From positions 124,001-188,000 of the forward strand of contig NZ_JAFNMJ010000002.1 in assembly GCF_026537325.1 (NCBI RefSeq): DNA of 64,000 bases, read 5' to 3'. The stretch is from Bifidobacterium sp. B4142 (GTDB lineage Bacteria; Actinomycetota; Actinomycetes; Actinomycetales; Bifidobacteriaceae). The notes under the pieces are model-generated. The model was not told the DNA's origin and searched no databases. It saw nothing but the letters and a program-made list of their open reading frames with translations. Below, piece after piece: positions 34,748-64,000 of the stretch (its first letter is position 1; each line of letters opens with the position of its first letter). A program made the translations under genes and the position numbers.

Positions 34748-34765
34748 GCTTCCAGTCTAAAGACT

Positions 34766-42261: not shown

Positions 42262-42265
42262 TGCA

Positions 42266-43027: not shown

Positions 43028-43031
43028 GTTT

Positions 43032-43430: not shown

Positions 43431-43438
43431 AATCTTGA

Positions 43439-43444
43439 ATTATC
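43439..43444 (-). promoter_or_regulatory. -10 box of ssrA
   Basis: GATAAT on the minus strand, extended by TT, ends eight bases before the mature tmRNA 5' end. No good -35 hexamer is visible 17 bases upstream. Confidence 0.5.
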
Positions 43445-43542
43445 AAGCCCCGCTGGTGCCATTACGGACCAGCCTCGTCAGTATACAACAGATGGACGTT
43501 GCGGATATTCCGCTTCTCTCTCGGCATTGACCGCGATCCTGG

Positions 43543-44487
43543 TCAAGCCACAGAGCCCAGTCGACTGGTGGCATAGTCGCTGAAGGCATGCACCTCATCC
43601 ACATCTTCGTAGAAGGCCTCCCGCTTGGTGTCGTTGAAGAGGAAGATGTTGAAACGGGGCATGTCATCCCCGGCAAAGGGGATGAAGCGCAGGCCATCGC
43701 CAGGGTGCACGCCGGCCGAGGTGATCAGACTGCAGACCAGACCGGATGTGGTCACCATCTTCAGGGTTTCTACGTCGGAGACCTCAACCAGATGACTGAC
43801 TGGTTCAGACAGGTGAATCAGCCGTTCGGCAGCCTGGGCATGGACGAAATCGCGGTTGAGGGTCGTGAAAGGAACGTCCCCGGGAAGCATGGACAGATCC
43901 TCGGGGTGCAGACTGGTCATTCCTGCCGTGCCCAACCGTTCGACCATGGACTGGGTGCAGACCATGCCGAAGGGGAAGGATGTCAGCTTGGTCGTTTCAA
44001 CGCCATCCACACTCAAAGACTCGTCGACACTGGCCACCGCCCCGTAGTCCACACGGTGGGCCTCTATCTGACTCAGCAACTTTTGAGACCCTATGGTTTC
44101 TACGGTCGCGTTCTTGTCTGGTTCGCACTGCTCTTGCCGCCCTTGCCCGGAGCTCAGCAGCGATGAGATGATGGGCGGCAGGCCGATGATGCGCCGTCGG
44201 ATCCCATTCCTCGCAGCCAGGGCCTCGGGCAGGGTGTTGATCAGGTCCAGGGCCTGGCCGACGTGGTCCACCACTGTTCTTCCGGATTGGGTGAGCTGTG
44301 TGCCGTCGCCAGCGCCGAAGCGCTTCCTCTGGACCAGCTTGGTTCCCAGACGCATTTCCAGCCTTCTGATGGCCTGCGAGACCGCAGGCTGTGAGATGCC
44401 TGCCTCCAATGCGACATCGGTGAAACTGCCGTACCGGGCCAGCATGGTAAGCAGCTCGAGGTCGCGGACATTATCCATATAGGTCAT
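43543..44487 (-). CDS. LysR-family regulator of the malolactic locus
   Basis: A 314-aa LTTR. The N-terminal winged HTH reads LELLTMLARYGSFTDVALEAGISQPAVSQAIRRLEMRLG; a linker helix and a type 2 periplasmic-binding-like effector domain follow (IIGLPPIISSL, CSLITSAGVHPGDGLRFIPF). MleR-type LysR proteins activate malolactic genes in lactic acid bacteria in response to malate. It is downstream of the malolactic enzyme gene in the same direction with a strong hairpin between, so it probably has its own promoter. ATG 44487 or 44478 could be the start. Confidence 0.88.
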   Translation of the reverse strand: MTYMDNVRDLELLTMLARYGSFTDVALEAGISQPAVSQAIRRLEMRLGTKLVQRKRFGAGDGTQLTQSGRTVVDHVGQALDLINTLPEALAARNGIRRRIIGLPPIISSLLSSGQGRQEQCEPDKNATVETIGSQKLLSQIEAHRVDYGAVASVDESLSVDGVETTKLTSFPFGMVCTQSMVERLGTAGMTSLHPEDLSMLPGDVPFTTLNRDFVHAQAAERLIHLSEPVSHLVEVSDVETLKMVTTSGLVCSLITSAGVHPGDGLRFIPFAGDDMPRFNIFLFNDTKREAFYEDVDEVHAFSDYATSRLGSVA

Positions 44488-44628
44488 GAGCCGCTTCCCT
44501 TGATTGGTGCTCGGACTATTGCTTATCCGTCAACTTTGGCGAAAAACTATTCACAACCACACTATCATCGTCATTTGGACTTGAGAAGATCGACACTTGA
44601 AAATATAGCCAGGGCCCGACTCATGACT

Positions 44629-44677
44629 GGGGTCCGGCCGCCACGATATCGGTTATCAATCGTGCCGGCCGGACCCC
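44629..44677. terminator. Long hairpin after the malolactic gene
   Basis: GGGGTCCGGC (44629-44638) pairs with GCCGGACCCC (44668-44677), and the stem continues inward through CG and CACGAT/ATCGTG with a single C-C mismatch, about 18 pairs in all around an 11-base loop. It lies 39 bases after the malolactic stop on the minus strand and separates it from the lysR start. Confidence 0.75.
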
Positions 44678-44715
44678 AACCTCAATGTCGCAATATGCGA
44701 AGAAGCTGGTTTCGC

Positions 44716-46338: not shown

Positions 46339-46640
46339 GGTCTCACTTGTCCTTCACGATTGGGGCCGGCCGCGTTGCCAGACCTCTGCAAACAGCCTAG
46401 AAAAACCTCTTGCCGACCGCCAAATAAGCATCGTCTATATGCTGTCAAGGGCCTATTTACCCTTGTTTGACGGGTCTGGGGGCCCTAGACAGCCGCCAGC
46501 TATGGCCCACCCTCATATATGCGGCGCTTATTTGTAGCCTCTGTCGCCTGCCGCATAGCATAAGTCCACATGAGCATGCCGACGAGGAGGCCGGCGGTTT
46601 CCGGACAGATATACGCCGGATCATGAGCGAAGGAGCAATG
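46339..46640. other. Divergent promoter region of the malolactic locus
   Basis: 302 bases between the malolactic enzyme start and the carrier start. No gene is supported. It is expected to contain the LysR binding site; I could not pick out a clear T-N11-A element. Confidence 0.45.
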
Positions 46641-48116
46641 ATGGGTGAAACAGTAAGAACGGGTGAGGGCAGGGGAGACCTCCAGGCAGGGGCTAGCCAG
46701 CCTTTCAATACGGGCCAACTGGTCAAGGCTCTCATCTGCGTGGCGGTAGGGCTGGTCATCTTCCTCATACCGCCTCCCAAGGGACTGACTCCCCAGGGCA
46801 TGCATATGCTAGGAGTCTTTGTGGGCACCATCCTAGGGCTGATTCTGCAGCCTCTGCCCACATCAGCGGTGGCTATCATTGGCATGACCGTGGGGATGCT
46901 GACTGGGGCCCTGGACCCCAAGAAGGCAGCTTTCAACGGACTAGGCAGTGCCTCCATCTGGCTGATAGTGGCGGCCTTCTTCATTGCCCAGGGATTTGTC
47001 TCCACCGGACTGGGCCGGAGGATCGCTTTGGTCTTTCTTTCCCGATTGGGCAAGTCCAGTCTGGGCATAGCCTACGGGCTCTCGGCCGCCGACCTGGTCC
47101 TGGCTCCGGCCACTCCTTCAAACACGGCTCGTCTGGGCGGCATTCTTTTCCCGATCATCACCTCCATCAGCGACGTGCAGGATTCAAAACCGGACACGGA
47201 CGAGTCCCGGCGACGCATCGGCGCTTACTTGGCGATCACGGCCAACAATGTCAACGCCATTACATCGGCCATGTTCCTGACGGCTATGGCGGCAGGCCCT
47301 GTCGTAGGACAGCTGGCCCAGAAATTCCATGTGGACATCGGGTGGGGCACCTGGGCCCTGGCCGGTATCGTGCCCGGCCTGATCTGCCTGATCATCATCC
47401 CCGCCTTGATCTATCGCATCTTTCCGCCCACCCTGCGGAACGTTCCTCAGGCTCAGGAGGATGCCAAGGATGAACTCAAGGGACTTGGCCCGCTGAGCAT
47501 GCACGAGTGGATCATGGCTGTGACCTTCCTGGTCATGCTGGTCCTCTGGGCGACCGGCTCGGTGATCCATATCAATTCCACCACCGTGGCCTTCCTGGGC
47601 GTGGCTGTGCTGCTGTGCACCAAGATCATCACCTGGCAGGACATGGTCGCCAACAAGTCCGCCTGGTCCACGCTGATTTTCTTCGGTGTTCTGGTAGGCA
47701 TGGCTGAACCCCTGAATACCCTGGGCGTCACCACCTGGGCAGGGGAGATCATCGCCGGGCTGGTCAAGGGCATGCCTTGGGTATTGGTCTTGGTTATTTT
47801 GACGGTCTTCTACTTCTTCATCCACTACATGTTCGCTTCTGAGCTGGCCCAGGTGGCGGCCATCTACACGCTCTTCGTCAGCGTGGCCGTGGCTGCCGGG
47901 GTACCCGCCATGCCTGCAGCGCTGATGCTGGGATGCGCCAGCGGTCTAATCGGTGCCATGACCCATTACGCCTCCGGACCGGCGGCCTTGATTTACGGTG
48001 CCGGATACGTCAAGACCTCTGAGTTCCTGCGTATTGGCCTGATCTGCGGATTGGTGACTGTGGCTATCTTCCTGACCGTGGGCCTGGGCTGGTGGCGGCT
48101 CATCGGCATCTGGTAA
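46641..48116 (+). CDS. DASS-family dicarboxylate carrier (malate/2-oxoglutarate type)
   Basis: A 491-aa divalent anion:Na+ symporter-family protein with ~12 helices. ATG 46641 has AGGAG five bases before it; 46638 and 46623 are alternatives and the longer frame upstream is poor. Family signatures: SNTARLGGILFPIITSIS, the ITANNVNAITSAMFLTAMAAGP helix, NKSAWSTLIFFGVLVGMAEPL, and the C-terminal GLIGAMTHYASGPAALIYGAGY anion site. Divergent from the malolactic gene across ~300 bases, so it most likely brings in malate or swaps it for lactate. Confidence 0.9.
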   Translation: MGETVRTGEGRGDLQAGASQPFNTGQLVKALICVAVGLVIFLIPPPKGLTPQGMHMLGVFVGTILGLILQPLPTSAVAIIGMTVGMLTGALDPKKAAFNGLGSASIWLIVAAFFIAQGFVSTGLGRRIALVFLSRLGKSSLGIAYGLSAADLVLAPATPSNTARLGGILFPIITSISDVQDSKPDTDESRRRIGAYLAITANNVNAITSAMFLTAMAAGPVVGQLAQKFHVDIGWGTWALAGIVPGLICLIIIPALIYRIFPPTLRNVPQAQEDAKDELKGLGPLSMHEWIMAVTFLVMLVLWATGSVIHINSTTVAFLGVAVLLCTKIITWQDMVANKSAWSTLIFFGVLVGMAEPLNTLGVTTWAGEIIAGLVKGMPWVLVLVILTVFYFFIHYMFASELAQVAAIYTLFVSVAVAAGVPAMPAALMLGCASGLIGAMTHYASGPAALIYGAGYVKTSEFLRIGLICGLVTVAIFLTVGLGWWRLIGIW

Positions 48117-48140
48117 ATCGTGATTCCGCAGATATAAATC

Positions 48141-48178
48141 TGGTCCCGTCCAGTCGACAGTTCGACAGGGCGGGACCA
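48141..48178. terminator. Hairpin between convergent DASS carrier and fructokinase
   Basis: TGGTCCCGTCC (48141-48151) pairs with GGGCGGGACCA (48168-48178) with one G-U pair and a 16-base loop. It is placed between the stop of the carrier and the stop of the kinase and can serve both. Confidence 0.7.
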
Positions 48179-48206
48179 AATCATGCTCCGAGAGAGGGGT
48201 AGGGGA

Positions 48207-49106
48207 TCATTGGCCCTGCTGACCCAGATAGTCGGGGATATGTTCGGGATATTCGGGCCAGGCGCCCTGCTGGGTGCAGACAAAGGCTGCAGTGTTGACG
48301 GCAGCCCGGTGAGCCTGAGTCAGGGAGGCCCCCAACAGGCGGTTGATGGCGAAGGTGCCGGAGAAGGCGTCGCCGGCCCCGACCGTGTCAGCCACAGTGA
48401 TTTCAGGCGTGGGCAGGTGGGAGGACTGGCCGTCCGCCAGATAGATCGTGCTGTAATCGCTGCCGGCGGTCAGCACGATGGTGTCTAGGTGCCACTGATC
48501 CATGAACCAGTGGCAGAGCTCATCATCGGTGGCTCCGGGCACGTGGAACATGTCACGCAGGGTGACCAGTTCTTCGTTGTTGAGCTTGAAGACCGTGGCC
48601 ATGTCCAGCAGCTCCTGAATCAGATCCTTGCTGTAGAAGGTGCCGCGCAGGTTGATGTCGAAGAAGCGCATGGCATGGCTCTTGGTGTGGCGCAGCACCT
48701 GCAAACAGGTTTCGCGAGACTGTCTGCTGCGCATGCTCAGCGTGCCGTAGCAGACGGCGTCGGCCTTGCTGGCCAGACCGGCCAGGTCATCCGTGTATTC
48801 CAGATGGTCCCAGGCCACATCGGGCTTGAAGACGTACTGGGGGATGCCCTCAGTCAGCTGGACCTCAACAGTGCTGGTGGGATGGTCGTTGTGCTGCAAG
48901 ACGGCATCGACGCCGGCCTTCTGGACCGCATCCTCGAGCTCCCGGCCCAGGTCGTCGCGTCCCACGGCGCTGATGGCGTAGCCTTCCGCCCCGTTCTTTG
49001 CGGCGTGATAGCTGAAGTTGACCGGTGCGCCACCGGCCCGCTTGCCTGTTGGCAGGACGTCCCAAAGGATTTCGCCGATGCTGAGGACCACGGGTTTACT
49101 GGTCAT
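48207..49106 (-). CDS. PfkB-family sugar kinase, probable fructokinase
   Basis: A 299-aa ribokinase-fold kinase. SIGEILWDVLPTGKRAGGAPVNFSYHAAKNGA is the substrate-lid and G-G motif region. The second signature DTVGAGDAFSGTFAINRLLG has the catalytic Asp. The close match of the N-terminus to fructokinases (GEILWD, GGAPVNF) supports fructose as substrate, but this rests on family resemblance. Start ATG 49106 overlaps the end of the ROK gene by 11 bases, so the two form one operon. Confidence 0.87.
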   Translation of the reverse strand: MTSKPVVLSIGEILWDVLPTGKRAGGAPVNFSYHAAKNGAEGYAISAVGRDDLGRELEDAVQKAGVDAVLQHNDHPTSTVEVQLTEGIPQYVFKPDVAWDHLEYTDDLAGLASKADAVCYGTLSMRSRQSRETCLQVLRHTKSHAMRFFDINLRGTFYSKDLIQELLDMATVFKLNNEELVTLRDMFHVPGATDDELCHWFMDQWHLDTIVLTAGSDYSTIYLADGQSSHLPTPEITVADTVGAGDAFSGTFAINRLLGASLTQAHRAAVNTAAFVCTQQGAWPEYPEHIPDYLGQQGQ

Positions 49107-50373
49107 GGTGTTCCTTTCCTGATGACGGGTGATACGCCCGCCTTGTGCTTGTTGATTTCACAGCTGTACGGCCCATACTGGCCGGGTGCTCCAAAAACTG
49201 GCTGGCAGCTACAGCCGCAGCGCCGGTCAGCGTAGCATCGGCTGGAAGGCGGGAGAGCAGGATCTGCGTGTGCTCTCGCAGGCCAGGCAGGGAGCGCTGG
49301 GACACTATGGATCGGACACGTTCCAACAGGCGTGTACCGGCTCCGGCCACCATGTCTCCAATGACGATCTGGGCGGGGTTGTAGGCGTTGACGATGGTTA
49401 CGCAGCCATAGCCCACATAGCCGGCTATCTGATCCACCAGGGTCTGGGCGGCCTGCTGGCCCGTGCGGGCTTTGTCGAACAGGCCAGCGCAGGCCTTGGC
49501 GTGGGTCATGGCCTCGACTCCAGGGAAGTGATCCCGCATATCCGGCTGGCACATGCGGCGGTGGATGGCTACCGCCGAGCAGTAGCATTCCAGGCAGCCG
49601 CGATTGCCGCACTCGCAGGGCAGTCCGTTCAGATCGATGCTGACGTGGCCGATCTCGGTGGCCGCTCCCTGGCTTCCGTCCACCAGGGCGCCCCTGTCGA
49701 TGACTCCAAGCCCAACGCCTTCGCCCACCAGAAAGTAGGCCATGCTGGATGCGCTCACCCGTGGGTCGAACAGACTCTGAGCCAGTGCGCCGGCGCGGGC
49801 GTCCTGCTCGATGAAGGTGGGTACACGGAAGGCTTGGCCGAATTCGTGGATAAAGTCCACGCCACGCCAGCCAGGCATGCTGGTGACCAAGGCGATGTGG
49901 CCGGTCTCGCGCAGATAGGGGCCCGGTATGGCCATGCCTACGGCGACGATGGCGGGGTTGGTCTCCAGTCGTCTTCCCACCCGGGTTCTGACCTCGGCTA
50001 CGGCGCCGGGGATGTCATCGGGGTCGACGGGAGGCAGATCCTCCGAGTCCAGCAGACGGCCGCTGATGTCGAACAGTCCGATGCTGACCAGGCTGCGGGC
50101 GAACTTGACTCCGATAACCTGATAGCGGTCGGCGTTCAGGGCCAGGCCGATGGATCGACGGCCGCCCTCTGAGTCCATGCTGCCGGTCTCGCTGATCAGG
50201 CCCAGGTCAATCAGACGGCCTGCCAGCTTGCCCACGGCTGCCGGCGTCAGATTGAGGTCTCGGGCCATCTGGGCTCGCGAACTGGTACCGTGCTGGTGCA
50301 GATATTGGACTATACGTGACTGGTTGAGCTCGGAGAGGGCCTGTGGCGTGCTGGCGTATGGGCTGCCGCGCAT
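49096..50373 (-). CDS. ROK-family transcriptional repressor
   Basis: A 425-aa NagC/XylR-like regulator. ATG 50373 follows AAGGAGGAGG; the frame extends 15 codons upstream with no better site. The N-terminal winged HTH (NQSRIVQYLHQHGTSSRAQMARDLNLTPAAVGKLAGRL) is joined to a sugar-kinase-like domain with GVGLGVIDRGAL, GATEIGHVSID, the ROK zinc site CECGNRGCLECYCS and the C-terminal NPAQIVIGD. It co-transcribes the sugar kinase and is divergent from GH20; a 17-bp palindrome upstream is a candidate operator. Confidence 0.92.
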   Translation of the reverse strand: MRGSPYASTPQALSELNQSRIVQYLHQHGTSSRAQMARDLNLTPAAVGKLAGRLIDLGLISETGSMDSEGGRRSIGLALNADRYQVIGVKFARSLVSIGLFDISGRLLDSEDLPPVDPDDIPGAVAEVRTRVGRRLETNPAIVAVGMAIPGPYLRETGHIALVTSMPGWRGVDFIHEFGQAFRVPTFIEQDARAGALAQSLFDPRVSASSMAYFLVGEGVGLGVIDRGALVDGSQGAATEIGHVSIDLNGLPCECGNRGCLECYCSAVAIHRRMCQPDMRDHFPGVEAMTHAKACAGLFDKARTGQQAAQTLVDQIAGYVGYGCVTIVNAYNPAQIVIGDMVAGAGTRLLERVRSIVSQRSLPGLREHTQILLSRLPADATLTGAAAVAASQFLEHPASMGRTAVKSTSTRRAYHPSSGKEHHDQ

Positions 50374-50759
50374 GTCAACCTCCTCCTTGAGCAGTACGGT
50401 CACGCGATCTTCGTGCACTTTATGAACGACGTTTATATATTAACACTGTTTATTATCCCTGCGCAAACTGTTCCGAACAGTTCACGCTATCCAGACAGGG
50501 GCAACTGCATGGTTGGCTGTGTCGTCATCAACCAGGAAGTTGGCCAGCCTCTGTCTCTGCACCAATGCGATGAATTGCAGATTCTTGCCTTTGCTGCTGT
50601 CATTGTGTGCTACCGATGGCCGCTCGCCCTGGGTGCCGGCATCATTCTCTGTCCCCGGCGTATGGGTAGATTGAGGAGGTGGCCATGATGGCCATAGCCG
50701 GGGCATGCCGGTGATGCAGTCGTCGGCGGCATCAGCCTATTTCGGGAAAGGCATGGAGC
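50374..50759. other. Divergent region ROK / GH20
   Basis: 386 bases without a supportable gene. The first ~100 bases are A/T-rich (TTTATATATTAA) and contain the palindrome at 50466-50482. A short open frame on the plus strand (50413-50688) has no family-like sequence or ribosome binding site. Confidence 0.5.
50466..50482. promoter_or_regulatory. Palindrome, candidate ROK operator
   Basis: AACTGTTC and CGAACAGTT flank a single central C, giving an 8-bp perfect inverted repeat. It is 93 bases upstream of the ROK start, next to the A/T-rich promoter-like block. ROK repressors bind palindromes of this size; the link is inferred from place. Confidence 0.5.
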
Positions 50760-52772
50760 ATGAGTCTTGATAATGGCATCGACACCGTTGCCGATCCTTC
50801 GCGAGAGCGTCCGTTGGCCCTGATTCCCCAGCCGCTCCATGTGCAAAGGGGCCGGGGCCAGTTGCTGTTGCCGGTGGCGGGCAGAATTGTATGCGGTTCA
50901 GCAGTTGACCAGGAGCTGGGTTCCGTCCTGAGCGACCAATTGACAGATACCATCAGGCGGGCTGCAGGAATGGTCTGGGACCATTCGCGGGGACAGGCTT
51001 GGACTGGGGCGATCAGTCTGGATCTGGACCAGAGGCTTGGCCCCCAGGAGTATCTTCTGCGCATCGCCGATCCCGGGGAGCGCCGTCCAATTGTGAATAT
51101 CCGCGGCGGTGACTGTCAGGGGCTGCGCTGGGGGGTGCAGACCCTCCGGCAGATCATCATGCAATGCGGTCCTGTGCTTCCGGCCCTGCACATCCAGGAC
51201 CGGCCCGCCTATCCAACGCGCATCTACAGCCTGGATGTGACCCGCGGTCGGGTGCCCACCATGGACTGGCTGCGGCACTGGGCGGATATATTGGCCTTGT
51301 ATAAGTTCAATCAGCTGCAGCTCTACATCGAGCACACCATGGCTTTCCCGGGCATGAGCGAGGCCTGGAGGGGCACAAGCCCCCTGGAGCCCGGGCAGAT
51401 CACCGATTTCGACGGCTACTGCGCCCGTCTGGGCATCGAGTTGGTGCCTTCGATCTCCACCTTCGGCCACCATTACGCTAACCTTCGCACTCGCGGATTC
51501 AGGGATCTAGGCGAGTTTCCTGAGCAGGCGGACCGGCCTTACTCTTTCATAGAGCGCCAGGAGCACCACACCATCAATGTCAACCACCCGCAGGCCCTGG
51601 CATTCTCGACCGGACTGATTGACGCCTACGCGCCGCTTATGCGCACACGTAATTTCAATATCGGCGGTGACGAGACCTTCGATCTGGGCAAGGGGCGTTC
51701 GCGGCAGAATGGTTCCAGCAAGGATCCTGCTGATATGTATGCCGATTATCTGATCAGCCTGTGCAATCACCTGCATGCACGGGGCCGCCATCCCATGTTC
51801 TGGGGCGATGTCGCTGTGTCCATGCCCAGAGTCTTGGACAGGCTGCCCAAGGACTGCACATTGCTCAATTGGCTCTACGACCCGCAGGTAGGGCCGGAAA
51901 AGGTTGCCCTTGTGGCCTCTACAGGGGCCCGGCAGGTAGTCTGCTCGGCCGTTCACGCCTGGAATCTTCTCCTGCCGGGAATCGACGATGCATGGAACAA
52001 CATCAGCCGTCTGAGCCGATACGGAATCCAGTACGGTGCCGTTGGGGCCATGGTTACCGACTGGGGCGATTACGGGCACATCAACGATCCGCGCATGAGC
52101 CTGCCTGGCATGGCCTACGCCGCCCAGTGCTTCTGGAACCCGAACGACGATGATAGAGTCCGGGTGGACAGGGATCTGGGCTTGCTGATCTATGGGGATG
52201 CGACAGGGGACTATCTGCCGGCACTGATCCAGGCAGGCTCCAGTGAGGTCTTCGGTTGGGAGGACATGGTTCGTTACTGGGAGCTGGATGACGGCCATGG
52301 CGGATTGAACCAGGATGTGGCCCACTTCCTTGCCGGTGCATTGCCCGTCTTGCCCGGATTTGATTCGTCCGCCGATGCCGACGAAGCTCGCCGGGGTCTG
52401 CTCATGGCTTTGCGCAGTCGTCTCGGGCAGGTGGATCAGCTTGACGATCGGCTGGTCGACGCGGCTGCGCGCATGGGCAGGGCCGCCGCCGGATGCGGGG
52501 CCGACGCGGGCAGGGCCTTGCAGGCCCAGCTGATGGCTGTCCATGGCCAACGCCTCTTCAACGCGCTGGGTCGCAGTCTGGCTGTCCGCCATGATGTTCT
52601 GCCTGGAGCTCCGGATGCCAGAGCCGACCGGGACCTGGCGGATGCTTTGGAGATCTGGTTCGAGTCTTACGCCACCCTCTGGCGTCAGGTAAGCCGTGAA
52701 TCGGAGCTGGGGCGGATCGCCCATGTAGTCTGGGGCTTTGCCGATATTCTGCGACGGGGGACGAACCAATGA
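50760..52772 (+). CDS. GH20 beta-N-acetylhexosaminidase
   Basis: A 670-aa glycosidase. The first ~140 residues form the GH20b beta-sheet domain (RPLALIPQPLHVQRGRGQLLLP, LRWGVQTLRQII). The barrel starts at YPTRIYSLDVTRGRVPTMDWL and holds LYIEHTMAFPG, SISTFGHHYANLR and the catalytic pair Asp304-Glu305 in IGGDETF. There is no signal peptide, so it acts inside on imported GlcNAc/GalNAc-containing sugars by substrate-assisted catalysis. The start ATG 50760 has GGGAAAGG nine bases before it. Divergent from the ROK-kinase operon. Confidence 0.88.
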   Translation: MSLDNGIDTVADPSRERPLALIPQPLHVQRGRGQLLLPVAGRIVCGSAVDQELGSVLSDQLTDTIRRAAGMVWDHSRGQAWTGAISLDLDQRLGPQEYLLRIADPGERRPIVNIRGGDCQGLRWGVQTLRQIIMQCGPVLPALHIQDRPAYPTRIYSLDVTRGRVPTMDWLRHWADILALYKFNQLQLYIEHTMAFPGMSEAWRGTSPLEPGQITDFDGYCARLGIELVPSISTFGHHYANLRTRGFRDLGEFPEQADRPYSFIERQEHHTINVNHPQALAFSTGLIDAYAPLMRTRNFNIGGDETFDLGKGRSRQNGSSKDPADMYADYLISLCNHLHARGRHPMFWGDVAVSMPRVLDRLPKDCTLLNWLYDPQVGPEKVALVASTGARQVVCSAVHAWNLLLPGIDDAWNNISRLSRYGIQYGAVGAMVTDWGDYGHINDPRMSLPGMAYAAQCFWNPNDDDRVRVDRDLGLLIYGDATGDYLPALIQAGSSEVFGWEDMVRYWELDDGHGGLNQDVAHFLAGALPVLPGFDSSADADEARRGLLMALRSRLGQVDQLDDRLVDAAARMGRAAAGCGADAGRALQAQLMAVHGQRLFNALGRSLAVRHDVLPGAPDARADRDLADALEIWFESYATLWRQVSRESELGRIAHVVWGFADILRRGTNQ

Positions 52773-53225
52773 TCGGATCGGTTGCGGAATCATATCGAAA
52801 GGCGGCAAGAAGGCGAGATTACCATCAACGAGTATCGCACCGCTCTACGGCATTTTAAGCTTTCCTGGCATGGAGTCTCAGGATTGCATAAATGCCGAGC
52901 CAGGCAAATTACCCAGCCCCGCTTGACTGTCATTGCCTCGGATGATTGCTTATGCCAACGCTTGAAGCCGACAGGACAAGCCATCATGCCAAAAGGAGTT
53001 CGGCTTTCGTTGTTGGGTGTTAGTCGGGCACTGGGCCCTATACAGTGAAAGAGCTTCTTGAAATCAACTGAGTGAGACTGAGGGTGGCGATAACGCCTCT
53101 ATATAATTCAACGAATTGACAAAATCGATCCATCACTCTATGCTTGATGCTCAGGCGGCAGGGACTGGCTTCCTCCCCTGTGAACGCTGTCAAAGGCAAA
53201 TGCAATACGCAAAGGAGCATTTCGG
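52773..53225. other. Intergenic region GH20 / xylA
   Basis: 453 bases. The right end contains the xylA promoter and ribosome binding site. Short open frames on both strands (52782-53048 plus, 52790-52987 minus) look like chance; I see no family signature in them. Confidence 0.5.
53116..53144 (+). promoter_or_regulatory. Sigma-70-type promoter of xylA
   Basis: TTGACA at 53116-53121 and TATGCT at 53139-53144 are separated by exactly 17 bases. This lies 82 bases before the xylA start and is the best-formed promoter in the window. Confidence 0.75.
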
Positions 53226-54569
53226 ATGGGTCTGTGGGACGTTGACAAGATCGAATACGTGGGTCGCCAGGGCATCAAGGAAGGCCTAGGCTTCCGCTAC
53301 TACGACAAGAACAAGGTGGTGGCCGGCAAGCCCATGAAGGACTGGCTGCGCTTCGCCGTGGCCTGGTGGCACACCTTCAACCAGGGCCTGGTGGATCCCT
53401 TCGGTGATCCCACCGCGCAGAGGCCCTACTACCGCTACACCGATCCCATGGATCAGGCGCTGGCCAAGGTGGACTACGCCTTTGAGCTTTTCACCAAGCT
53501 GGGGGTCGAATTCTTCTGCTTCCACGACCGTGACCTGGCTCCCGAAGGCGACACTCTGCGAGAAACCGACGCCAACCTGGACAAGGTGATCGACCGCATC
53601 GAGGCCGCCATGAAGGACACGGGCGTCAAGCTGCTCTGGAACACCTCGTCGCTCTTCACCAATCCCCGTTTCGAGGCCGGTGCCGGCACATCGCCCTTCG
53701 CTGACATCTACGCATACTCGGCGGGTCAGCTCAAGCACAGCCTGGAGATCGGCAAGCGTCTGGGCGCCGAGAACTACGTTTTCTGGGGTGGCCGTGAAGG
53801 GTATGAATCCCTCTGGAACACCGAAATGAAGCGTGAGCAGGACCACATGGCCAAACTCTTCCACATGTGCGTGGACTACGCCAAGGAGATCGGTTTCGAT
53901 GCACAGTTCCTGATCGAACCCAAGCCCAAGGAGCCCACACTCCACCAGTATGACTACGATGCAGCCACCACCATCAACTTCCTGCGCACCTACGACCTTC
54001 AGGACAACTTCAAGCTCAACATTGAAGGCAACCACGCCAACCTGGCCATGCATACCTATCAGCATGAAGTTCGCGTGGCCCGCGAGGCCGGATTCCTGGG
54101 ATCCTTGGATGCCAACCAGGGCGACAAGCTGATCGGCTGGGACATGGACGAGTTCCCCTCGGACCTCTACGATGCCACCGCCGTCATGTGGGAGGTGCTG
54201 GCCAACGGGAGCATCGGGCCCCACGGAGGCCTGAACTTCGACGCCAAGCCGCGCCGTTCCTCCTTCCTGCCCGAGGACCTCTTCAGGACCCACATCGTGG
54301 GCATGGACACCTATGCCGCCGGTCTGCTGGTCGCGGCAAAGATGCATGAGGACGGTTACATTGAGCAGCTGCAGCAGGAGCGCTACTCCTCCTTCGATTC
54401 CGGCATCGGCGCCACGGTTGAGGACGGCACGGCCACGCTGGCCTCCCTGGAGGAGTACAGCCTTGACAAGCCGCAGGCCGAACTGATCGCCGCCGACAAG
54501 TCCGACCATCTTGAAGTGGTCAAGGCCACCATCAACAACTACATTGTGGAGGCTCTGGCTCAGGCCTGA
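53226..54569 (+). CDS. xylA: D-xylose isomerase
   Basis: A 447-aa metal-dependent isomerase converting D-xylose to D-xylulose (and glucose to fructose in some). ATG 53226 follows AAGGAG. It belongs to the longer class II form. Typical segments: [28 protein letters not shown], the metal ligand-bearing [72 protein letters not shown]. Bifidobacteria feed xylulose into the phosphoketolase shunt. It stands alone with its own promoter and terminator; xylulokinase is not in the window. Confidence 0.96.
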
Positions 54570-54589
54570 GGATAAGAAATTCTGTTTCC

Positions 54590-54632
54590 GGCCCCATGCG
54601 ATGCTGTTGGCACCGCATGGGGCCATCATTTA
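54590..54632 (+). terminator. Rho-independent terminator of xylA
   Basis: GGCCCCATGCG (54590-54600) pairs perfectly with CGCATGGGGCC (54614-54624) over a 13-base loop and is followed by ATCATTTATTT. It lies 21 bases behind the xylA stop and overlaps the end of the convergent kinase pseudogene. Confidence 0.88.
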
Positions 54633-55589
54633 TTTAGATCATGCGCCTGCAGGTTGTTGATGAGCCAGGACCAGTCGTATGGGCCTTCATATCGTTGGAT
54701 AAATTCGAGAATAGTCGGAATGTCAGATGCGCTAAGGGCACTTCCGGGGGTCTGCACTGAGCAGGAGGATGCCGCGGTTGCCAACTTAATGCAATGGCGC
54801 AATGGCTATGACCATGTAAAGGCTGTCATTAAAGCGGCTGCAAAATGTCGCCGGCGCCAGTGGGGTCCTTTGCTTCCACGGGAGGGGCCGGAACTTCGAT
54901 GAAGCCGGTCCGGTCAGGGGCAAAAGATCCCAGACCGCCGCGTGTGATGATAACCGTTGATACACGCTCACGAAGCATTTTCAGAGCACTTGCTGTTATC
55001 TTCAGACCAGTGAAGTGTCTTGCTTCGGTCTCGTTCATCAGCAGGACATGGACTATTCTGGCGGATTCGAGAATCTGTCTAGGCCAGCGGCCGGAGCGAT
55101 CCCAGCCGACGCCGCCAAATATGATTGTGCCTTGGTCTTGCAGGGGCTGTGACCAGGCGGGCAACTCTTCAGTGAGGTTGATGAAGAGCGTTTTGGTCAG
55201 TTTACCGGCAGGCCAATCCAAAGCAAGCGCTGAATGGTCATAGGTGACAATGCGCGATCATTGCTAGTGCTGATAGACACTGAGACCGGATTGCGGTATG
55301 TCGTGTCGGTCGTGCACAGATCAAGATTGAGATGGTCAACCTTTTGCAGAGTTTTGAACAGTAAAGTCGATAATTGATCGTGTCCTTGGTTGGTGAGCAG
55401 ACAGGATTCGGCTCCAAGTCTTGCGGCGGCCACTGCCCTGTTGGCTGCGCCTCCCAGAGAAAAGGAGAGGTTGCCGGCCAGCACTTCGGTTCCTGGCCGT
55501 GGGAAATCGACATCCGAAAAAAACAGGTCTAGGTAAGTATTCTCGGCAATCACTACGTCAAAGATTTTCTGACCGGCTTCATCGTTCAT
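54626..55589 (-). pseudogene. PfkB-family sugar kinase, broken
   Basis: Kinase similarity is continuous but in three frames. The N-terminus (MNDEAGQKIFDVVIAENTYLDL, then SFSLGGAANRAVAAARLGAES) runs to a shift near 55245, where the expected IVTYDHSALALDWPAGKL continues in another frame. The middle (HVLLMNETEARHFTG, DPTGAGDI with the catalytic Asp) shifts again at ~54840, then AAALMTAFTWS is followed by a TAG and PLRHCIKLATAASSC. At least two frameshifts and one stop. It faces the DeoR-GH4 genes, as a kinase of the same pathway would. Confidence 0.85.
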
Positions 55590-55679
55590 CGTCTTATTGT
55601 TGATTCTGCTCATTTTAGATAAAAACACTCATAATGAGCAAGCTTTTTCAAATCCTGTCATTTCATATATCGTGGAGTC

Positions 55680-56453
55680 ATGCTTTTGGATGAACGTCGT
55701 CAGCGGATTCTCGATCAGCTGGCCAAACATGGACAGTCAGTCAAGGACTTGTCACATGGTCTTGGGGTCAGTGAATCCACTATCAGAAGGGACCTCACAT
55801 TTCTGGAACAGGATGGTCGCCTTAAGCGAAAATATGGTGGTGCAATGCTGACCCAGGGCAACAGGGCCGATATCACTGACTCAGGCAAGTAGGATCGCGT
55901 TGCTGAGGTAACTGATGTGCAGATGCAACTTCGGGAACGCATGGCTAAGGCTGCTGCTGACATGGTTCAGGACGGCTCGGTCGTCATTTTGGATGTGGCC
56001 CCTGAAGCAGCTTTGATCGCGCGCAATCTGCGCGGACACAAAGTTACTATCCTAACATCGAATCTGGCCGTGCTTGATCAAGTTCGTGATGATGACGCAG
56101 TTGACCTGGTGCTCATAGGCGGAGCGGTGCGGCATCATCACGACAGTCTGGTTGGCCCGTTGGCTGAACGGATGATTACCGATGTTGCAGCTGACTTGAT
56201 GTTTCTTTGTTGCACTGGCGTGCGGGGGAATGCCGTGGTGGACGATATGGCCGTCGAGGCCCCGGTACGCCAGGGTTTTATAAAGGCGTCCCAGCAAATA
56301 GTCCTGCTGGCGGATGAATCCAAATTCCCCGGAACTGGAAGTTTCAGACTGTGCTCATTGACTGATTTGAATGCTCTCGTCACGACTTCGGGGTCCAGGA
56401 AAGGAATCCAAGACAGTTTTGCCAAGGATGGCAAGAAGGTGGTGGTCGTATGA
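55680..56453 (+). pseudogene. DeoR-family sugar regulator, single nonsense codon
   Basis: One frame covers the whole protein (~257 codons): the DeoR HTH (RRQRILDQLAKHGQSVKDLSHGLGVSESTIRRDL) and the phospho-sugar sensing domain (SVVILDVAPEAALIARNL, VLIGGAVRHHHDSLVGPLAE, ILLADESKF-like). TAG at 55890-55892 splits it at residue 71, just after the HTH, in DSGK-stop-DRVAEV where Gln is likely. No frameshift is seen, so the lesion looks recent. A restart at ATG 55917 or later would give only the sensor domain. ATGA links it to the GH4 frame. Confidence 0.85.
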
Positions 56454-57808
56454 AATTAACGATTCTTGGTGGCGGAGGCTTGCGTACGCCGTTCATCTGG
56501 TAGGCGTTGATCAGAGATCGAGGCGACCCGCGCGTAAATGAGCTGGCTCTGTATGACACAAGCCAGTCGCGTATGGATACGGTGATGAACATCATGCGCG
56601 TCCAGGGCAAAGGCTTTGACCACAAGCCGCGAATCTGCAAATACACGGAGCTTGAGCCGGCCCTGAGCGGTGCCGATTTTTTGCTGCAATTCGTGAGGGA
56701 GGTCTCCAGGCTAGATGCTGCGATGAACATGTGGTTTTGGATCTGGGCCTGGTGGGGCAGGAAACCACTGGACCCGGCGGGCTTGTATACGCCATGCGCA
56801 ATGTACCGGTATGCTGCGGATGGCCCGTGTGGCTGCCAGGGTCTGTCCTGAAGCATACTTTTTGAACTTCACCAACCCAGCTGGCATCATTACCGAGGCA
56901 TTGCAAAGCGTATTGGGTAAACACGTGGTTGGCATATGTGACACGTCATCTGGATTGGGCAGAAGAATAGCTGCGGCTGTGGGTCATAATCCCGAGGATG
57001 TCAGCATGGATTATGTTGGCCTCAACCATCTGGGTTGGATGCGAAGAGTGCTGATCGGCGATCATGATCTGTTGTCGGACTTCTTGGCTGATGCGGAAAA
57101 GCTGTCGGGACTGGAGGAGGCCAAGGTCTTCGATCCGGATTGGTTGCGGTAGCTACGGATGATTCCCAATGAGTATCTCTTCTACTACTAATGCGATAGA
57201 GATGCTGTCCGTCGTGTCTTGGAGTCTCCCATGACTCGCGTGGACTTTCTGCTCAAGACTCAGACCCGCTTCTATGAACAAGCAGCCAAAGCTGGAAATG
57301 AAGCTGATTGTGTCTGGACAGATGCCTTGCAGGAACGTGGAGCTAGTTATATGGCTGAGGCGCTGGGAGGTGTCCAAGGTGCTCCTACTGGCAACCGCAA
57401 GGAGGAGTTTGATCCTGCTCATTTGGGTTATGCAGGAGTGGCTCTGGGTGTTATGAATGCAATCGGTCGCCATAAGCGTCGCGTCATGATTCTCAATGTG
57501 TGCAATAACGGAACAATAACAGGTCTATCCGATGATGCCGTTGTCGAGGTTCCCTCGCTTGTGGACTCTCACGGAATCCATCCTCTGAATGTGGGAGAGC
57601 AGCCTACGATGGACCAGATCGGCCTTATGCAACAGGTGCGTCAGTCGGAAAGGCATGCGGTTCGGGCTGGGATTGAGGGATCTTCCCAGGAGGCTTTGCT
57701 GGCTTTCGCCTTGCGCCCTCTCGTGCAGTCCATTCCGTTGGCTAGAAAGAGCTGCTGGCTGGATATCGTTATGAAATTCCTGAGATTAATGCCCTTTTTG
57801 AAAAATGA
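56450..57808 (+). pseudogene. GH4 6-phospho-glycosidase, multiply broken
   Basis: Starts ATG 56450 overlapping deoR. MKLTILGGGGLRTPFIW is the NAD-binding N-terminus of family 4 and is cut by TAG 56501-56503 (CAG expected). A frameshift follows near 56680. The next piece has YFLNFTNPAGIITEAL and GLNHLGWMRR, the manganese-site region, then TAG at 57150-57152 and TAA at 57189-57191 around LRMIPNEYLFYY. The C-terminal part has VEVPSLVDSHGIHPL. A last shift restores YRYEIPEINALFEK before the true TGA at 57806-57808. GH4 enzymes hydrolyse 6-phosphorylated glycosides with NAD and Mn. Confidence 0.85.
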
Positions 57809-57963
57809 GGATAAAAATGACCACTAGTTTTCGGCCCGAGGTTGAGCAGGTCGGTACGCAGAAGGGGATTCTTTGCGTTTCTCATGTGACGTATTGCAAG
57901 AGTTTACAGTGCCAGGTAAAGCGCTCAAAGCGGATTGTTTTGTAAAGGAGAGGTGCTCGGTTT
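57809..57963. other. Short gap between GH4 and GH38 pseudogenes
   Basis: 155 bases. A frame from ATG 57817 codes 42 residues (MTTSFRPEVEQVGTQKG...) with no recognisable family; it may be a gene scrap or noise. The ribosome binding site of the GH38 frame is at its right end. Confidence 0.35.
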
Positions 57964-60900
57964 ATGCAAATCAAGGTTGATCGAGAGCTGAACAAGTGTT
58001 AGCGCTTCCTCAGAGATCGCATACGTCTTTTTATCAAAGAGGAACTTGAATCATGCACTGTCACCGCATATGTCAACGCAGGAGAGTCTGAACCTCACAA
58101 GGACTTTATTCGCCGTGCTGGGGCCGGTTTGATTCGATTTCACCCTGATGATCGTGGAGATGCATGGGAAACGAACTGGGGAACGACTTGGTTTCGCGTT
58201 GATGGCAGGCTTCCTATGTCGGAGTCTGGTCATGAGACGGAGATTGATTTGATTGTTGACCTGGGCTGGAATACCAGCGTTTCCGGGGGACAGTGCGAGG
58301 GATTGGTTTTTGCCAAGGATGGAAGAGCGATCAAGGGCGTTCAGCCAATGAATGCTTGGGTCTGTTTGCAAGGCAAGGGTGCTATGGCGGGTCTGTGTGA
58401 CGGCAAGGGGACTTTCCGCCTCTATGTTGAGGCCGGGTGCAATCCCATGCTGTTCAATATTCCACAGCGCTCCACGGATTTAGGTGAGTAGGCCGATGGG
58501 CGTGTGTGTACGAAGTATGCCTTCCATGGCATTTAGTCTGTGCCGATTTGATCGTGAACTCTGGAAGTATGCCAGCGATCTGGAGGTGGCTACAGGTCTG
58601 CTTGACGTCATTGACAAGAACTCGGTGCGATATTGGCAGGTGATGAAGGCCCTGCAGGCCTCGCTTAGTCATTATGATGATGATCACCGTGCTGAAACAC
58701 TCGGTCAGGCTCGTCTGCATTGGCTGGGGTGTTGAGCAAAACCAACGGTCCAACGGTTTTCCATGATCATGCGGTCGGTCACGCACATATAGACACTGTT
58801 TACCTGTGGCCGAAGCGCGAGACAAGACGAAAGATCGGCAGAACTGTTGCCAATGTCCTTGCCTTGATGGATCAGGACGACGAATTTGTTTTTGCAATGA
58901 GCTCAGCTCAGCAGTTTGCATGGCTGGAAGAGGATTATCCTGATCTCTTCCGACGCGTAAAGGAACGGATAGGCGAGGGTCGATTCATTTTTGTGGGCGG
59001 AATGTGGGTAAAAGCAGACGCCATGATGCCCTCAGGCGAGTCTCTTGTCAGGCAAATCACCTACGGCCGTCGGAATTGTAAAGACCATCTCGGCGTTAGT
59101 CCAAAAGGCGTCTGGCTGCCCGATAGCTTTGTGGGTATACAGGAGCTTTCCCGCAGATTGCTAGAAGGGCTGGATACACCTGGTTCCTCTCGCAGAAATT
59201 GTCCTGGAATGACACAACCAAATTTCCCCATCATTCTTTCATTTGGGAGGGAATCGACGGCAGCCCGATACTGACTCTTTTCGTCTACTGATACTTATGC
59301 CGCTTAAATCACTCCCGGTGAATTGCGTTACTCGGAGATAAATGCAGCCGACAAGGAATGGATCGACCAGGGTTTGTTTATGGATACGGTGACGGTGGCG
59401 GTCCCACCAGGGAGATGCTAGGTAGGCTCTCTAGGCTACGCGATCTTGAGGGCGTGCCCACCTTTACCCCCGCTTCGCCTGACGATTTCTTCCAGACGCT
59501 GGCAGATCAGATGAATCGTTGTGATGGCTTTGAGAGGCCGCGTTGGCATGGTGAGCTATATCTGCAGCTGCATCGAGCCACGCTCACGGCGCAGCAAGAC
59601 ATGAAGGCTGACTGCCGTTGTGAGGAAGGGATGCTTAGAACCATGGAATATTTGAGTTGTGTAGCCAGCTTGTGCCATGCGGAATATCGTTATCCCGGCA
59701 ATTGGCTTCAATCCATCTGGCACCGTCTTCTATTCAACCAGTTTCAAGATATTCTCCCAGGTTCTTCGATCTCTTGGGTGCACCGTGAAGCTCGCCAGGA
59801 GTATGAGCAGAATATGTCTGAGCTCAGCGGGTTGATTCAGTCGGCTGCTGATACTGTGGCAGAGGCTGATCCTGATCTTCCCGTGCTTCAAAAGGGGTAT
59901 GTTGCGCAAAAGGATTGGCTGATGCATCCAAGTCTCTCAGACAACTGTGCTGTGGATGACAGTTGTCTTTCCTGCAATGATTCCGCTCCTCGAGTGCATG
60001 CTGGAAAAGATGGGTTCGTCATGGAGAATGCTTCGATAAGAGTTGTCATCAATAACGAAGGTCTGATTGTATCTTTACGCGACCTTAAAACAGGATGCGA
60101 ACTGGTGGCGTCAAATCACGCTCTAGGCTCCTATCGCCTGTTGATCGACAAGCCATGCGAACGTGATGCATGGGAATTGGACCGAGTTGCCTTCATGGGT
60201 CTTATTGATGAAGGCAGGGTCGTCAAGGTTGAGCCTATTTGCTCATTCGTTTCGTCTGGCGTGGAGATCACCACGGCTATAGGCGCCGGAACAACTATCA
60301 GGACTCAGGTTCTTCTGGATAGCCAAAACCAGGAGTCTTAGGTTCCATGCCTACGTTGACTGGCGGGAGCGGGATCGCTTTCTCAAGGTGGATTTCCCTT
60401 TGAATGTCCAGACATCCATGGCTACTTACGAGTGTCAATACGGTACTGTCGATCGTCCCGTCCTTAGGGATGATGCAGACACGGAGGCTGCTTTTGAGTG
60501 TTGCACCCATAGATTCTCGTACACCTTCGTGAGGGTGGATATGGAGTTGGGCTGGTCAACGAATCAACATATGGCTCCAGTGTCTTCCCCCTGGAGTCCG
60601 ATTGGCAGAACGGTGGCAGAACAGGACTCTTTTGGAGTTGTCGCTGCTTTCTGCACCTACATTTCCTGATCCCAATACAGATGTCGGTCGGAGTCACGAG
60701 TTCACCTGGGAGGTCCTTCCGGGTGCCGATATGGCGGATACCGTCAAGGAGGCGGGTGTTGTCAACGCACCGACAATTGCTCATTTGCCGCAGGTCAGGC
60801 GCTGATCCGATTGGGTCAGAGGAAAGCCATGGTGATTCTGGTCTGGGTCAAGCCAGCAGATGACGGCTCGAAAAACATCATTGTTCGTTTGTATGAACCT

Positions 60901-61098
60901 GTAGGGGAATCTGCAACTGCGGACATCCTGGCGGATTATCTGATCGCCGAGGCAACCGTATGCGAAACGGATTTGCTGGAAGTAGCTGGGGCGACCCACG
61001 ACACGCCTTCCGCCCTGGAAGGCGCTTGGATTCCTCTGCAAAGTGCGCACCTTAACCTACGCCCATACCAATTAACGACGTTACGGATTCGACCATGA
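57964..61098 (+). pseudogene. GH38 alpha-mannosidase, multiply broken
   Basis: The frame from ATG 57964 (AAGGAGAGG upstream) reads MQIKVDRELNKC then TAG, RFLRDRIRLF. The N-terminal domain (ETNWGTTWFRVDGRLP) shifts near 58490. The catalytic part contains GHAHIDTVYLWPKRETRRK, FAMSSAQQFAWLEEDYPDLF, GRFIFVGGMWVKADAMMPSGESL and GVWLPDSF, then stops and shifts around 59170-59360, resumes at GFVYGYGDGGG and HRLLFNQFQDILPGSSI, and breaks again near 60340 and 60670. The end LRPYQLTTLRIRP is the family C-terminus. At least six lesions. Alpha-mannosidases of this kind trim imported mannosides or N-glycan fragments. Confidence 0.88.
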
Positions 61099-61184
61099 TG
61101 GGCTCGGCGCCCAGGCCATGGACAATGAGGACTGTGCCGGGGCGCTTATGCATACAAACAATATCAAAAAGAAAGTAGGGAGAT

Positions 61185-62181
61185 ATGACTATGATGTCAG
61201 AATCTTACACATCCCTGTCATCGCCAAAATCCGGGGGTGTAAATCTATCCGATCGATGGAAAAAAGGAATACGAAGCAAGGGCAGATGGGCCGGCTTGGG
61301 ATTTGTCCTGCCCTTCTTGCTGGTCTTTTTTGTTGCTACCATACTGCCCATTATTTATGCTCTGTACTTGAGTCTCTTCCGTGATCAGCTTATAGGCGGC
61401 AGCTGTTTCGTTGGATTGGCAAGTACATGTCGCTGCTCGGAAGCGGTACTTTTTGGGACGGGGTATGGCGCGTGATTCGGGTGTTCCTGATCCAGGTTTC
61501 AATCATGTTGGGCCTGGCCCTCCTGGCGGCCCTATACATAGACTCCGGGCGACTCAGAGGGCATGGGTTTTTCCGAATCATTCTTTTCCTGCCGTATGCA
61601 GTTCCAGGCGTTGTCACAGTGCTGATATGGGAGTTCCTCTATGGGATCAATTCTGGTTGACAGCCAGTATTAACGGCTGGTTCAACCTCGCCATGCATCC
61701 TTTGTCCAAGAACGTCATCCTTTGGTCCATTGGCAACATCATGATCTGGTCGTTCTTGGGATACAACATGTTGATCCTGTACTCCGGGCTGAGAACAATT
61801 CCTACCGAGCTGTACGAAGCTGCCCGTTTGGATGGTGCTGGTGAATGGGAAATCGCTCATTGCATCAAGGTGCCGGCAATAAAGAAGCAGCTGCTGATCA
61901 CATGGATGTTTTCTATTATCGGTACCTTCCAGCTTTTCAGTGAGCCGCAGTTGCTGAAGACTCCCGCACCCAACGCCATATCAAGCAACTACACGCCCAA
62001 CCTTTGGGCATACAACCTGTCGCTTAACGGAAGCCGGCACAACAATGCAGCTGCTCTGGCCATTCTTATGGGGCTAATCACAGAGGTGATCACCTATATC
62101 ACCCAGGAGCGGGGATCGCGAAGCGGCGATGAGAAGCAATCCAAGGCATCCCGAGTCGCACAAAGGAGGGCTGATCGATGA
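61185..62181 (+). pseudogene. ABC sugar permease (MalF/UgpA type), frameshifted
   Basis: First helix WAGLGFVLPFLLVFFVATIL in frame one, then a shift near 61420 to SLLGSGTFWDGVWRVIRVFL and FFRIILFLPYAVPGVVTVLIWEFLYGINSG, then a single-base loss at ~61657 to LTASINGWFNLAMHPLSKN. The rest is intact, with the ATPase-coupling EAA loop YEAARLDGAGEWEIAHCIKVPAI. Two shifts. Stop overlaps the next permease start (ATGA). Confidence 0.85.
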
Positions 62182-63074
62182 GTATCGTCAAACGATTCGG
62201 GTCAAACAGATCTACTGGCACCCACAGTCTGGTTCGACGCTCGCCGGCCATGCTCATTTTTATGATGCTCTTGGCGTCGTATTCCTTGGTTCCATTGTTG
62301 TGGCTGCTTATCAATGCCGCTAAGACCCAGGCTGACGTTATGTCCACGTTCGGTCTGTGGTTCGGACACGGCTTCAACCTGATAAACAACGTCAAGGAGA
62401 CCTTTGCTTATAAGGATGGGATTTTCGCCACATGGCTTCTCAATACTTTCTTATACGTACTGATCGGAGCCGGCGGCGCAGCTTTTTTGGCGACCATGGC
62501 GGGATATGCGCTGGCTATCTTTGACTTTCCGGGCAAGAAAGGCATCCTCGCCACGGTAATCGGAGGCATAGCAATCCCGGGAACAGCGCTGGTCATTCCT
62601 ACATTCCTGCTTTTTGCCAAGCTAGGCTTGACCAATACGCCGTGGGCTGTCATTCTTCCGTCACTGGTGAGCCCCTTCGGCCTTTATCTCGTCATGAGTT
62701 ATTCGAGGACCGGCCTACCGGTCAGCGTCATTGAGTTGGCATGCATGGATGGTGCTGGGGAATTCCGAATCTTCGCGCATATTGTGGTGCCTTTTCTGTC
62801 GCCCAGCATCATTACGCTGCTTTTGTTCGCTATCGTACAGACCTGGAATAACTATTTCCTGCCGTTGATCATGCTCAACGATCCCCGGTGATATCCGCTG
62901 ACCGTAGGTCTTAATGAATGGAATGACCAAGCTACGGGTTCGTCGATGCCAGAGCCCATCTACAATCTGGTGATCACTGGTTCCTTGCTTACGGTCATAC
63001 CGATTATTGTCATTTTCCTAATGCTGCAATGTTACTGGGAATCCGGCCTGACGGCGGGAAGTGTCAAGCAGTAA
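62178..63074 (+). pseudogene. ABC sugar permease (MalG/UgpE type), one nonsense codon
   Basis: A single frame covers a full inner-membrane permease of 298 codons: helix 1 SPAMLIFMMLLASYSLVPLLW, the MalG-like GYALAIFDFPGKKG, and the EAA loop IELACMDGAGEFRIFAHIVVPFL. TGA at 62889-62891 occurs in MLNDPR-stop-YPLTVGLNEW, exactly where a Trp (TGG) is conserved. After it the frame continues through the last helix to TAA 63072-63074. It is the least damaged gene of the cluster. Confidence 0.87.
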
Positions 63075-63191
63075 TACGTCGATGTGACTAGGAGGTCATA
63101 GAGAAAGTCCCTCGTCTTGGCGGTTGCAGAAGAGACAGGGTTCAATAGGCATCGTCGATTCGTCGGCATGCCACATCAAAGGAGATTGGTG

Positions 63192-64000
63192 ATGGAACAT
63201 AGCATAATGAAGAAATTCGTCACAGTTGCCACGGCGGCAGCTTTGCGACATCTTTGTTGAGCGTTTGTGGAGGTGGCTCTTCAACAAATCAAAGCGGCCA
63301 AGCCAATAACATAGAAAGGCGCTTGCGAAAGGAGGCGATCTGGTCTACTGGACTTGGACCACGTCCGCCGATACGCAGGTCAAGGCTTTCGAGAAGCATT
63401 GCCCGGGGTTGATGTCAAGGTCGTCAACCTTGGTAGCGGGGCAGCAGCATATACCAAGATGATGAATGCCATAAAGTCAGGGTCCAATGTACCCGACATC
63501 ATGCAGATCGAATATCAGGCCTTGTCGCAGTTCTACACGCCTGGCAACCTGTTGGATCTAGTGCCTTATGGCTTTGCCTCGCTCAAGAGTCAATACGCAG
63601 CATCGGCATGGAATTCAGTGAGCGTTGGAGGCAAGGTCTATGGGCTTCCTCAGGATACCGAACCGATGGTCCTCTATTACAACAAGAAAGTCTTTGACTC
63701 GTTCGGCATAAGCGAAGCGCCAAAGACCTGGGATGAATTCGTAACGGATGGCGAGATCATGCAGCAGCACGATCCAAGCGTCCATATCACGAGCGACTCG
63801 GGTCAGGGCAATTTGGTGGTCTCTCTGCACTGGCAGGCTGGCAGCCATGCCTTCAAGGTCTCTGGATCAAGTGTAACCATCAATTTGAGTGAAAAAGGCG
63901 CCCAGCGGTGGGCTGCCGTCTGGGACAAGCTGATCGGAGAGCACCTGAATACCACAGTGGCCAATCAGGGCACGGAATGGTATCAGGCTGCCGACAAGGG
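63192..64000 (+). pseudogene. Sugar ABC transporter binding lipoprotein, frameshifted (runs off the window)
   Basis: AAAGGAG precedes ATG 63192. MEHSIMKKFVTVATAAAL begins a signal peptide; the expected ATSLLSVCGGGSST lipobox (LSVC) is in the next frame. Another shift comes near 63320 before GGDLVYWTWTTSADTQVKAF, and a third near 63402 before PGVDVKVVNLGSGAAAYTKM. From there the frame is open to the edge and shows an extracellular solute-binding protein type 1 (DIMQIEYQALSQF, GGKVYGLPQDTEPMVLYYNK, APKTWDEF). It would serve the two permeases upstream. Confidence 0.85.

Follow-up and report, generated by a model that had tools for sequence, protein, structure and literature searches.

Probable pseudogenization, as a whole, of a seven-gene oligosaccharide uptake locus with an alpha-mannosidase gene in Bifidobacterium sp. 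B4142

According to the available part of a review (PMC10154615), GH38 enzymes act on high-mannose N-glycans, GH5 subfamily 18 enzymes can cut the core Man-GlcNAc link, and Bifidobacterium longum carries three GH38 genes and a GH125 gene in one operon. The locus analyzed here belongs to Bifidobacterium sp. B4142 (genome G000; 2.22 Mb, draft in 19 contigs) and lies at the right end of a 64,000-nucleotide stretch (the window; positions 124001-188000 of the 390,684-bp contig C8). Its seven neighboring genes, for a PfkB-family kinase, a DeoR-family regulator, GH4 and GH38 glycosidases, two ATP-binding cassette (ABC) permeases, and a sugar-binding lipoprotein, occupy window positions 54626-64000 (C8:178626-188000), and the seventh continues to window-equivalent position 64530, 530 bp past the window. 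In contrast to the B. longum operon, the locus contains one GH38 gene together with GH4 and kinase genes, none of the seven is a GH125 gene, and it is broken in G000. With a probability of roughly 0.9, a working seven-gene ABC oligosaccharide locus was released from selection in the G000 lineage after the split from its sister species and became pseudogenized as a whole. No paper in the literature search was recognizable from its title or the start of its abstract as dealing with this seven-gene locus, which is not proof of absence.

When the locus DNA was compared with 39 genomes (G000 included), the only other genome matching all 9,375 bases was G001, at 90%. The match has 90.2% DNA identity over an 11.5-kb block that holds the seven genes and the intact left neighbor, and G000 and G001 are regarded as sister-like species because their rpoB regions are 94.7% identical; the rpoB-region DNA of Bifidobacterium sp. 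ESL0784 and ESL0682 is 81.6-81.8% identical to that of G000. The G001 locus (L019:3309-13235) possesses the same seven genes in the same order and orientation and differs in that all frames are open, whereas none is open in G000; it therefore represents the syntenic intact ortholog expected of a pseudogenized operon. The G001 proteins comprise 329 (PfkB), 262 (DeoR), 453 (GH4), 1046 (GH38), 353 and 298 (permeases 1 and 2), and 482 (binding protein) amino acids, and Pfam identified them as PfkB, DeoR, GH4, GH38, two BPD_transp_1 permeases, and SBP_bac_1.

In the frames of G001, the G000 locus carries 35 lesions, namely 11 nonsense codons (three each in GH4 and GH38 and one in each of the other five genes) and 24 frameshifting indels (PfkB 3, GH4 3, GH38 9, permease 1 5, and binding protein 4), with one extra 3-bp indel left out of the count. 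Two of the PfkB frameshifts are internal, and the third is a 7-bp indel at the 5' end, at the first codon, where the start is uncertain. Permease 1 has two internal frameshifts, its three further indels and its nonsense codon being located in a probably non-coding 5' stretch, and the nonsense codon of the binding lipoprotein is upstream of the probable start. DeoR is interrupted by a single nonsense codon at window position 55890, and the first codon used in G001 is not ATG in G000, with another ATG 15 bp further (55680); the single nonsense codon of permease 2, at 62889, leaves 237 of 298 amino acids. A strict set of 29 lesions was obtained by dropping six that possibly precede the real start of the gene (permease 1 four, binding protein and PfkB one each), on the authors' judgment of an N-terminal comparison with genome G018 and ESL0784 or, for PfkB, by first-codon position. 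This comparison, in which the GH38 start is conserved, suggests that in G001 the open reading frames (ORFs) of permease 1 and the binding protein have been assigned starts too far upstream. Every one of the seven genes keeps at least one lesion in the strict set (PfkB 3, DeoR 1, GH4 6, GH38 12, permease 1 2, permease 2 1, and binding protein 4). Searches of G000 by tblastn with the G001 proteins recovered PfkB in three pieces (three frames), GH4 in four, GH38 in five, and the binding protein in two. DeoR and permease 2 were each recovered in one piece containing a single stop, and only the C-terminal half of permease 1 appeared at a 60% identity cut. The indels are small, 7 bp at most, and there is no large deletion yet.

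The original prediction had described seven neighboring genes all broken by more than 15 stops or frameshifts, with one nonsense codon each in DeoR and the MalG-type permease and at least six lesions in GH38, and had proposed alignment with an intact relative as a check. This description stands throughout, since all seven genes bear lesions in G000 and all seven are open in G001, the two single-lesion genes give the same count in the alignment, and GH38 has 12 lesions. The continuation past base 64000, also proposed there, shows that the decayed binding-protein gene runs to 64530 and that open GH38 frames lie directly downstream.

Table 1. Features of the decayed locus and of associated genes (window coordinates unless a contig is given)
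Feature	Position	Strand	Basis or remark
PfkB-family sugar kinase pseudogene	54626..55606	-	Alignment to open 329-aa G001 gene; PF00294 on G001 protein
DeoR-family regulator pseudogene	55665..56453	+	PF08220 and PF00455 on G001 protein
GH4 glycosidase pseudogene	56450..57808	+	PF02056 and PF11975 on G001 protein
GH38 alpha-mannosidase pseudogene	57964..61098	+	PF01074, PF09261 and PF07748 on G001 protein
ABC sugar permease 1 (MalF type) pseudogene	61118..62181	+	PF00528 on G001 protein
ABC sugar permease 2 (MalG type) pseudogene	62178..63074	+	PF00528 on G001 protein
Sugar-binding lipoprotein pseudogene	63084..64000, on to 64530	+	PF01547 on G001 protein
Xylose isomerase-like ORF, intact left neighbor	53226..54569	+	447 aa; named from sequence
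Open GH38 frames of G000	C8:189750, C8:192925, C1:65902		Pfam domains confirmed for C1:65902
Binding-protein matches with one stop	G006:C23, G023:C1, G020:C5, G039:C10, G004:C1, G012:C9		

The lesions go beyond those of control genes. In 17 control ORFs (25,605 bp) of collinear G000/G001 DNA, including four outside the window, three frameshifting gaps and two stops were confined to two ORFs, and the gaps are within the first 140 nucleotides (at nucleotide 15 of one ORF and 73-140 of the other), probably in over-long 5' ends. With the locus entered as 9,800 bp and all 24 indels, Fisher's test against the control gave p 4e-14 with no control frameshifts and 5e-11 with three. Within the window, the statement that the previous 54 kb reads cleanly was checked by this comparison for 13 ORFs of at least 150 amino acids (inside window 24921-34852, 40080-50476, and 53098-54620). 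The left edge of the decay is marked by the xylose isomerase-like ORF, which has a ratio of nonsynonymous to synonymous divergence (dN/dS) of 0.042 against G001.

Pooled over 3,197 codons, the locus shows dS 0.293, dN 0.049, and dN/dS 0.168 between G000 and G001, compared with 0.324, 0.033, and 0.102 for the 17 control ORFs. G018, which shares five of the genes, served as the outgroup for polarizing the changes. Pooled over these five, the G000 branch has 106 amino-acid changes and the G001 branch 19 (counts that include at most 7 nonsense codons and leave 89 amino-acid differences not polarizable), versus 157 and 101 synonymous changes (Fisher p 1e-6). The controls put through the same polarization numbered 14 (rpoB and 13 of the 17 control ORFs, namely those for which a G018 stretch had been retrieved), of which 12 were used and two had no good G018 match; only 160 of the 447 codons of the xylose isomerase-like ORF were included. 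In the 12 control genes, the ratio of amino-acid to synonymous changes is symmetrical, at 48:398 for G000 and 59:365 for G001 (p 0.18). On the G000 branch, the difference between locus and control has p 1e-19. The excess change thus lies on the G000 branch for five of the seven genes together, and relaxed selection on the affected branch is found for these five genes pooled.

Two compositional features were considered as marks of decay and rejected. On the G000 branch, the locus has 216 GC-to-AT and 77 AT-to-GC substitutions (71:61 on the G001 branch), but this AT bias was dropped because G000 control genes show it likewise (309:124) and it is not locus-specific; mutation is generally AT-biased according to the available part of Hershberg and Petrov 2010 (PMC2936535). 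The low GC content, 0.519 in G000, is also low in the intact G001 copy (0.545), so that most of the dip predates the decay.

The neutral phase estimated from the polarized excess covers 0.12-0.16 of the G000 branch, and that estimated from nonsense codons covers 0.19 (11 codons) or 0.16 (9 codons), with a Poisson range of 0.07-0.31. Measured from the present, selection on the locus seems to have ended at roughly 10-25% of the distance to the G000/G001 split, and in this sense the decay is recent, as had been suggested. The event is an ordinary kind of gene loss, recent and datable, and two approaches that are partly independent of each other give agreeing estimates for the release. It offers a clear and young case in which an entire catabolic locus has been inactivated but not yet deleted, and for which the sister's open copy, an outgroup, and intact neighbors are all available.

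Several observations weigh against the release of the whole locus or against its timing. Per-gene dN/dS, another proposed check, ranges from 0.11 to 0.34, and only GH4 and PfkB (the highest, at 0.34) singly surpass the control range of 0.04-0.19; pairwise dN/dS by itself is weak evidence because the other genes fall inside that range. These two genes are also the ones left out of the polarization, and DeoR taken alone has no branch asymmetry (6 vs 5). The pairwise timing varies with the dN/dS assumed for the functional phase, from 0.23 at 0.06 through 0.15 at 0.10 to 0.04 at 0.15, and the interval at 0.15 includes zero. The two timing methods are not fully independent because the dS scale and some codons are common to both. 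Finally, the evidence consists of assembled sequence alone, from one genome of the G000 species.

Under whole-locus pseudogenization, a complete ABC-type oligosaccharide locus, whose clearest enzyme would have been the GH38 alpha-mannosidase, once worked and would have been released from selection in a single step after the split from the sister, and since then all seven genes would have drifted neutrally at about the same rate, accumulating stops, small indels, and amino-acid changes. The loss could have been tolerated because alpha-mannosides would still be served by the remaining intact clusters of GH38 and transporter genes, of which one lies directly downstream, and only this particular imported sugar would be left unused. 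The lesion counts are compatible with neutral decay at an even rate following one release, since simulation of a uniform per-base rate over the seven genes gave p 0.56 for 35 lesions and 0.65 for 29, and DeoR and permease 2 together have 2 lesions against an expectation of 5.0 (P 0.12). The earlier claim of decay as a unit is upheld in that all seven genes are broken and the lesions are spread evenly by length; the further claim, of loss first in one part and then relaxed selection on all, is not called for by these counts. That one gene, for example of the transporter, failed first and the rest followed is a rather unlikely alternative. The lesion counts do differ, from one each in DeoR and permease 2 to twelve in GH38, PfkB has the highest dN/dS, and some gene must take any first lesion, but the between-gene heterogeneity is not significant, and although any decay must begin with some first lesion, the counts reveal no interval of visible length before the others. 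The heterogeneity test gave no signal as an indicator of the order of gene failure, and lesions follow gene length; therefore, no gene need have failed first.

The region to the right of the locus raises another possibility. Sister identity drops sharply right of window-equivalent position 64601 (L002 13601 onward, corresponding to 64602-78398). In this region, the GH38b proteins of G000 and G001 are 78% identical with dS 1.38 (pooled control ORFs 0.32), and the binding protein and permease-like proteins are 46-58% identical between G000 and G001, those of G000 being 82-83% identical to those of G018. One sister thus appears to have exchanged the downstream mannoside cluster by recombination. 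Such an event could have brought a divergent GH38-GH38-transporter cluster next door, whereby the older locus became redundant and was released all at once. The loss of sister-like identity and the resemblance to G018 are in favor of this displacement, but G018 keeps both clusters, which are not plainly redundant there, and either sister could be the one that changed its cluster; the proposal is tentative and somewhat doubtful.

Whole-locus pseudogenization does not entail loss of mannoside use. G000 has three open GH38 genes, as does G018, and G001 has two, so that by gene count the alpha-mannosidase set of G000 exceeds that of its sister. Directly 3' of the decayed binding protein, two GH38 genes (1058 and 1050 amino acids) are followed by a binding protein, two permease-like proteins, a 456-amino-acid GH5_18-like protein, GH31, LacI, and GH2, all in open frames. 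Both GH38 genes are free of internal stops, and dN/dS, estimable for one of them, is 0.12. The permease-like proteins are 26-32% identical to the locus's own type, and the one scanned was below the Pfam cut-off; the 456-amino-acid protein has no Pfam match and matches BlMan5B and other GH5_18 structures (E 2e-163). The broken GH4 gene is the sole GH4 found in G000, with no intact copy in the genome. What is lost outright, as predicted from gene content, is the genome's GH4 and this transporter with its kinase and regulator. Loss of the whole alpha-mannoside niche, which the original prediction had considered probable, is very unlikely; the decay of the locus as a unit with the sole GH4 gene would agree with it, but it is unsupported because an intact GH38 cluster adjoins the decayed locus and a third GH38 gene is found elsewhere. 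The genome's other genes have to be counted before a broken locus is taken to mean a lost diet.

It is hardly credible that a working locus looks broken through errors of sequencing or assembly. The 19-contig draft was judged from its assembled sequence alone, and single-base events make up 16 of the 24 frameshifting indels, with 8 of them falling in runs of 3-5 equal bases. However, the 11 nonsense substitutions are no indel errors, 8 indels involve more than one base, and 3 of the single-base indels are outside any run. Frameshifting gaps in the 17 same-contig control ORFs are confined to two of them, near the 5' end, and amino-acid replacements are raised as well, on the G000 branch only.

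By homology, the longest gene is ancestrally a GH38 alpha-mannosidase. Its G001 ortholog possesses N-terminal, middle, and C-terminal GH38 domains, all over the Pfam cut-off, and aligns near full length (1050-1083 bits) to PDB entries 7ufr, 7ufs, 7uft, and 7ufu, presumably the B. longum GH38 enzymes of the high-mannose N-glycan operon. Among solved structures, the G001 GH4 protein is closest to the 6-phospho-beta-glucosidases 5c3m (E 7e-61) and 1s6y (E 5e-59), and a phosphorylated GH4 substrate in an ABC locus would need a kinase. The nearest solved relatives of the binding protein are listed merely as sugar-binding proteins. The suggestion that the genes import and split mannosides thus depends on the GH38 step alone, and the GH4 and binding-protein relatives do not name the imported sugar.

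More distant loci resemble the G001 locus in part. GH38, both permeases, and the binding protein have counterparts at 57-82% amino-acid identity in G018 (L020) and at 52-74% in ESL0784 (L025) and ESL0682 (L026). The G018 cluster differs in that GH4 and a PfkB-like gene (43% amino-acid identity) are more than 20 kb away, and no ORF matching GH4 or PfkB was seen in the 21-kb ESL0784 and ESL0682 loci. The orthologous GH38 of ESL0682 is itself split in two frames, appearing as two overlapping ORFs (L026 14671-17821) with a one-base length difference inside relative to ESL0784 (96% identical); it may be failing in another species too, or be misassembled. Among the 38 matches listed for the binding protein in the genus, six besides its own locus have one stop inside the matched stretch (Table 1), and these are perhaps further decaying transporters or perhaps contain only terminal stops.

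Elsewhere in the window, two blocks (34853-40079 and 50477-53097) have no match in the collinear G001 region, and the second holds a 670-amino-acid ORF resembling, by its sequence, a GH20 hexosaminidase. An AT-rich stretch at 42000-43540, where the 42-44 kb bin has a GC content of 0.515, contains short ORFs only and sits between ORFs named from sequence as ABC permease-like and LysR-like.

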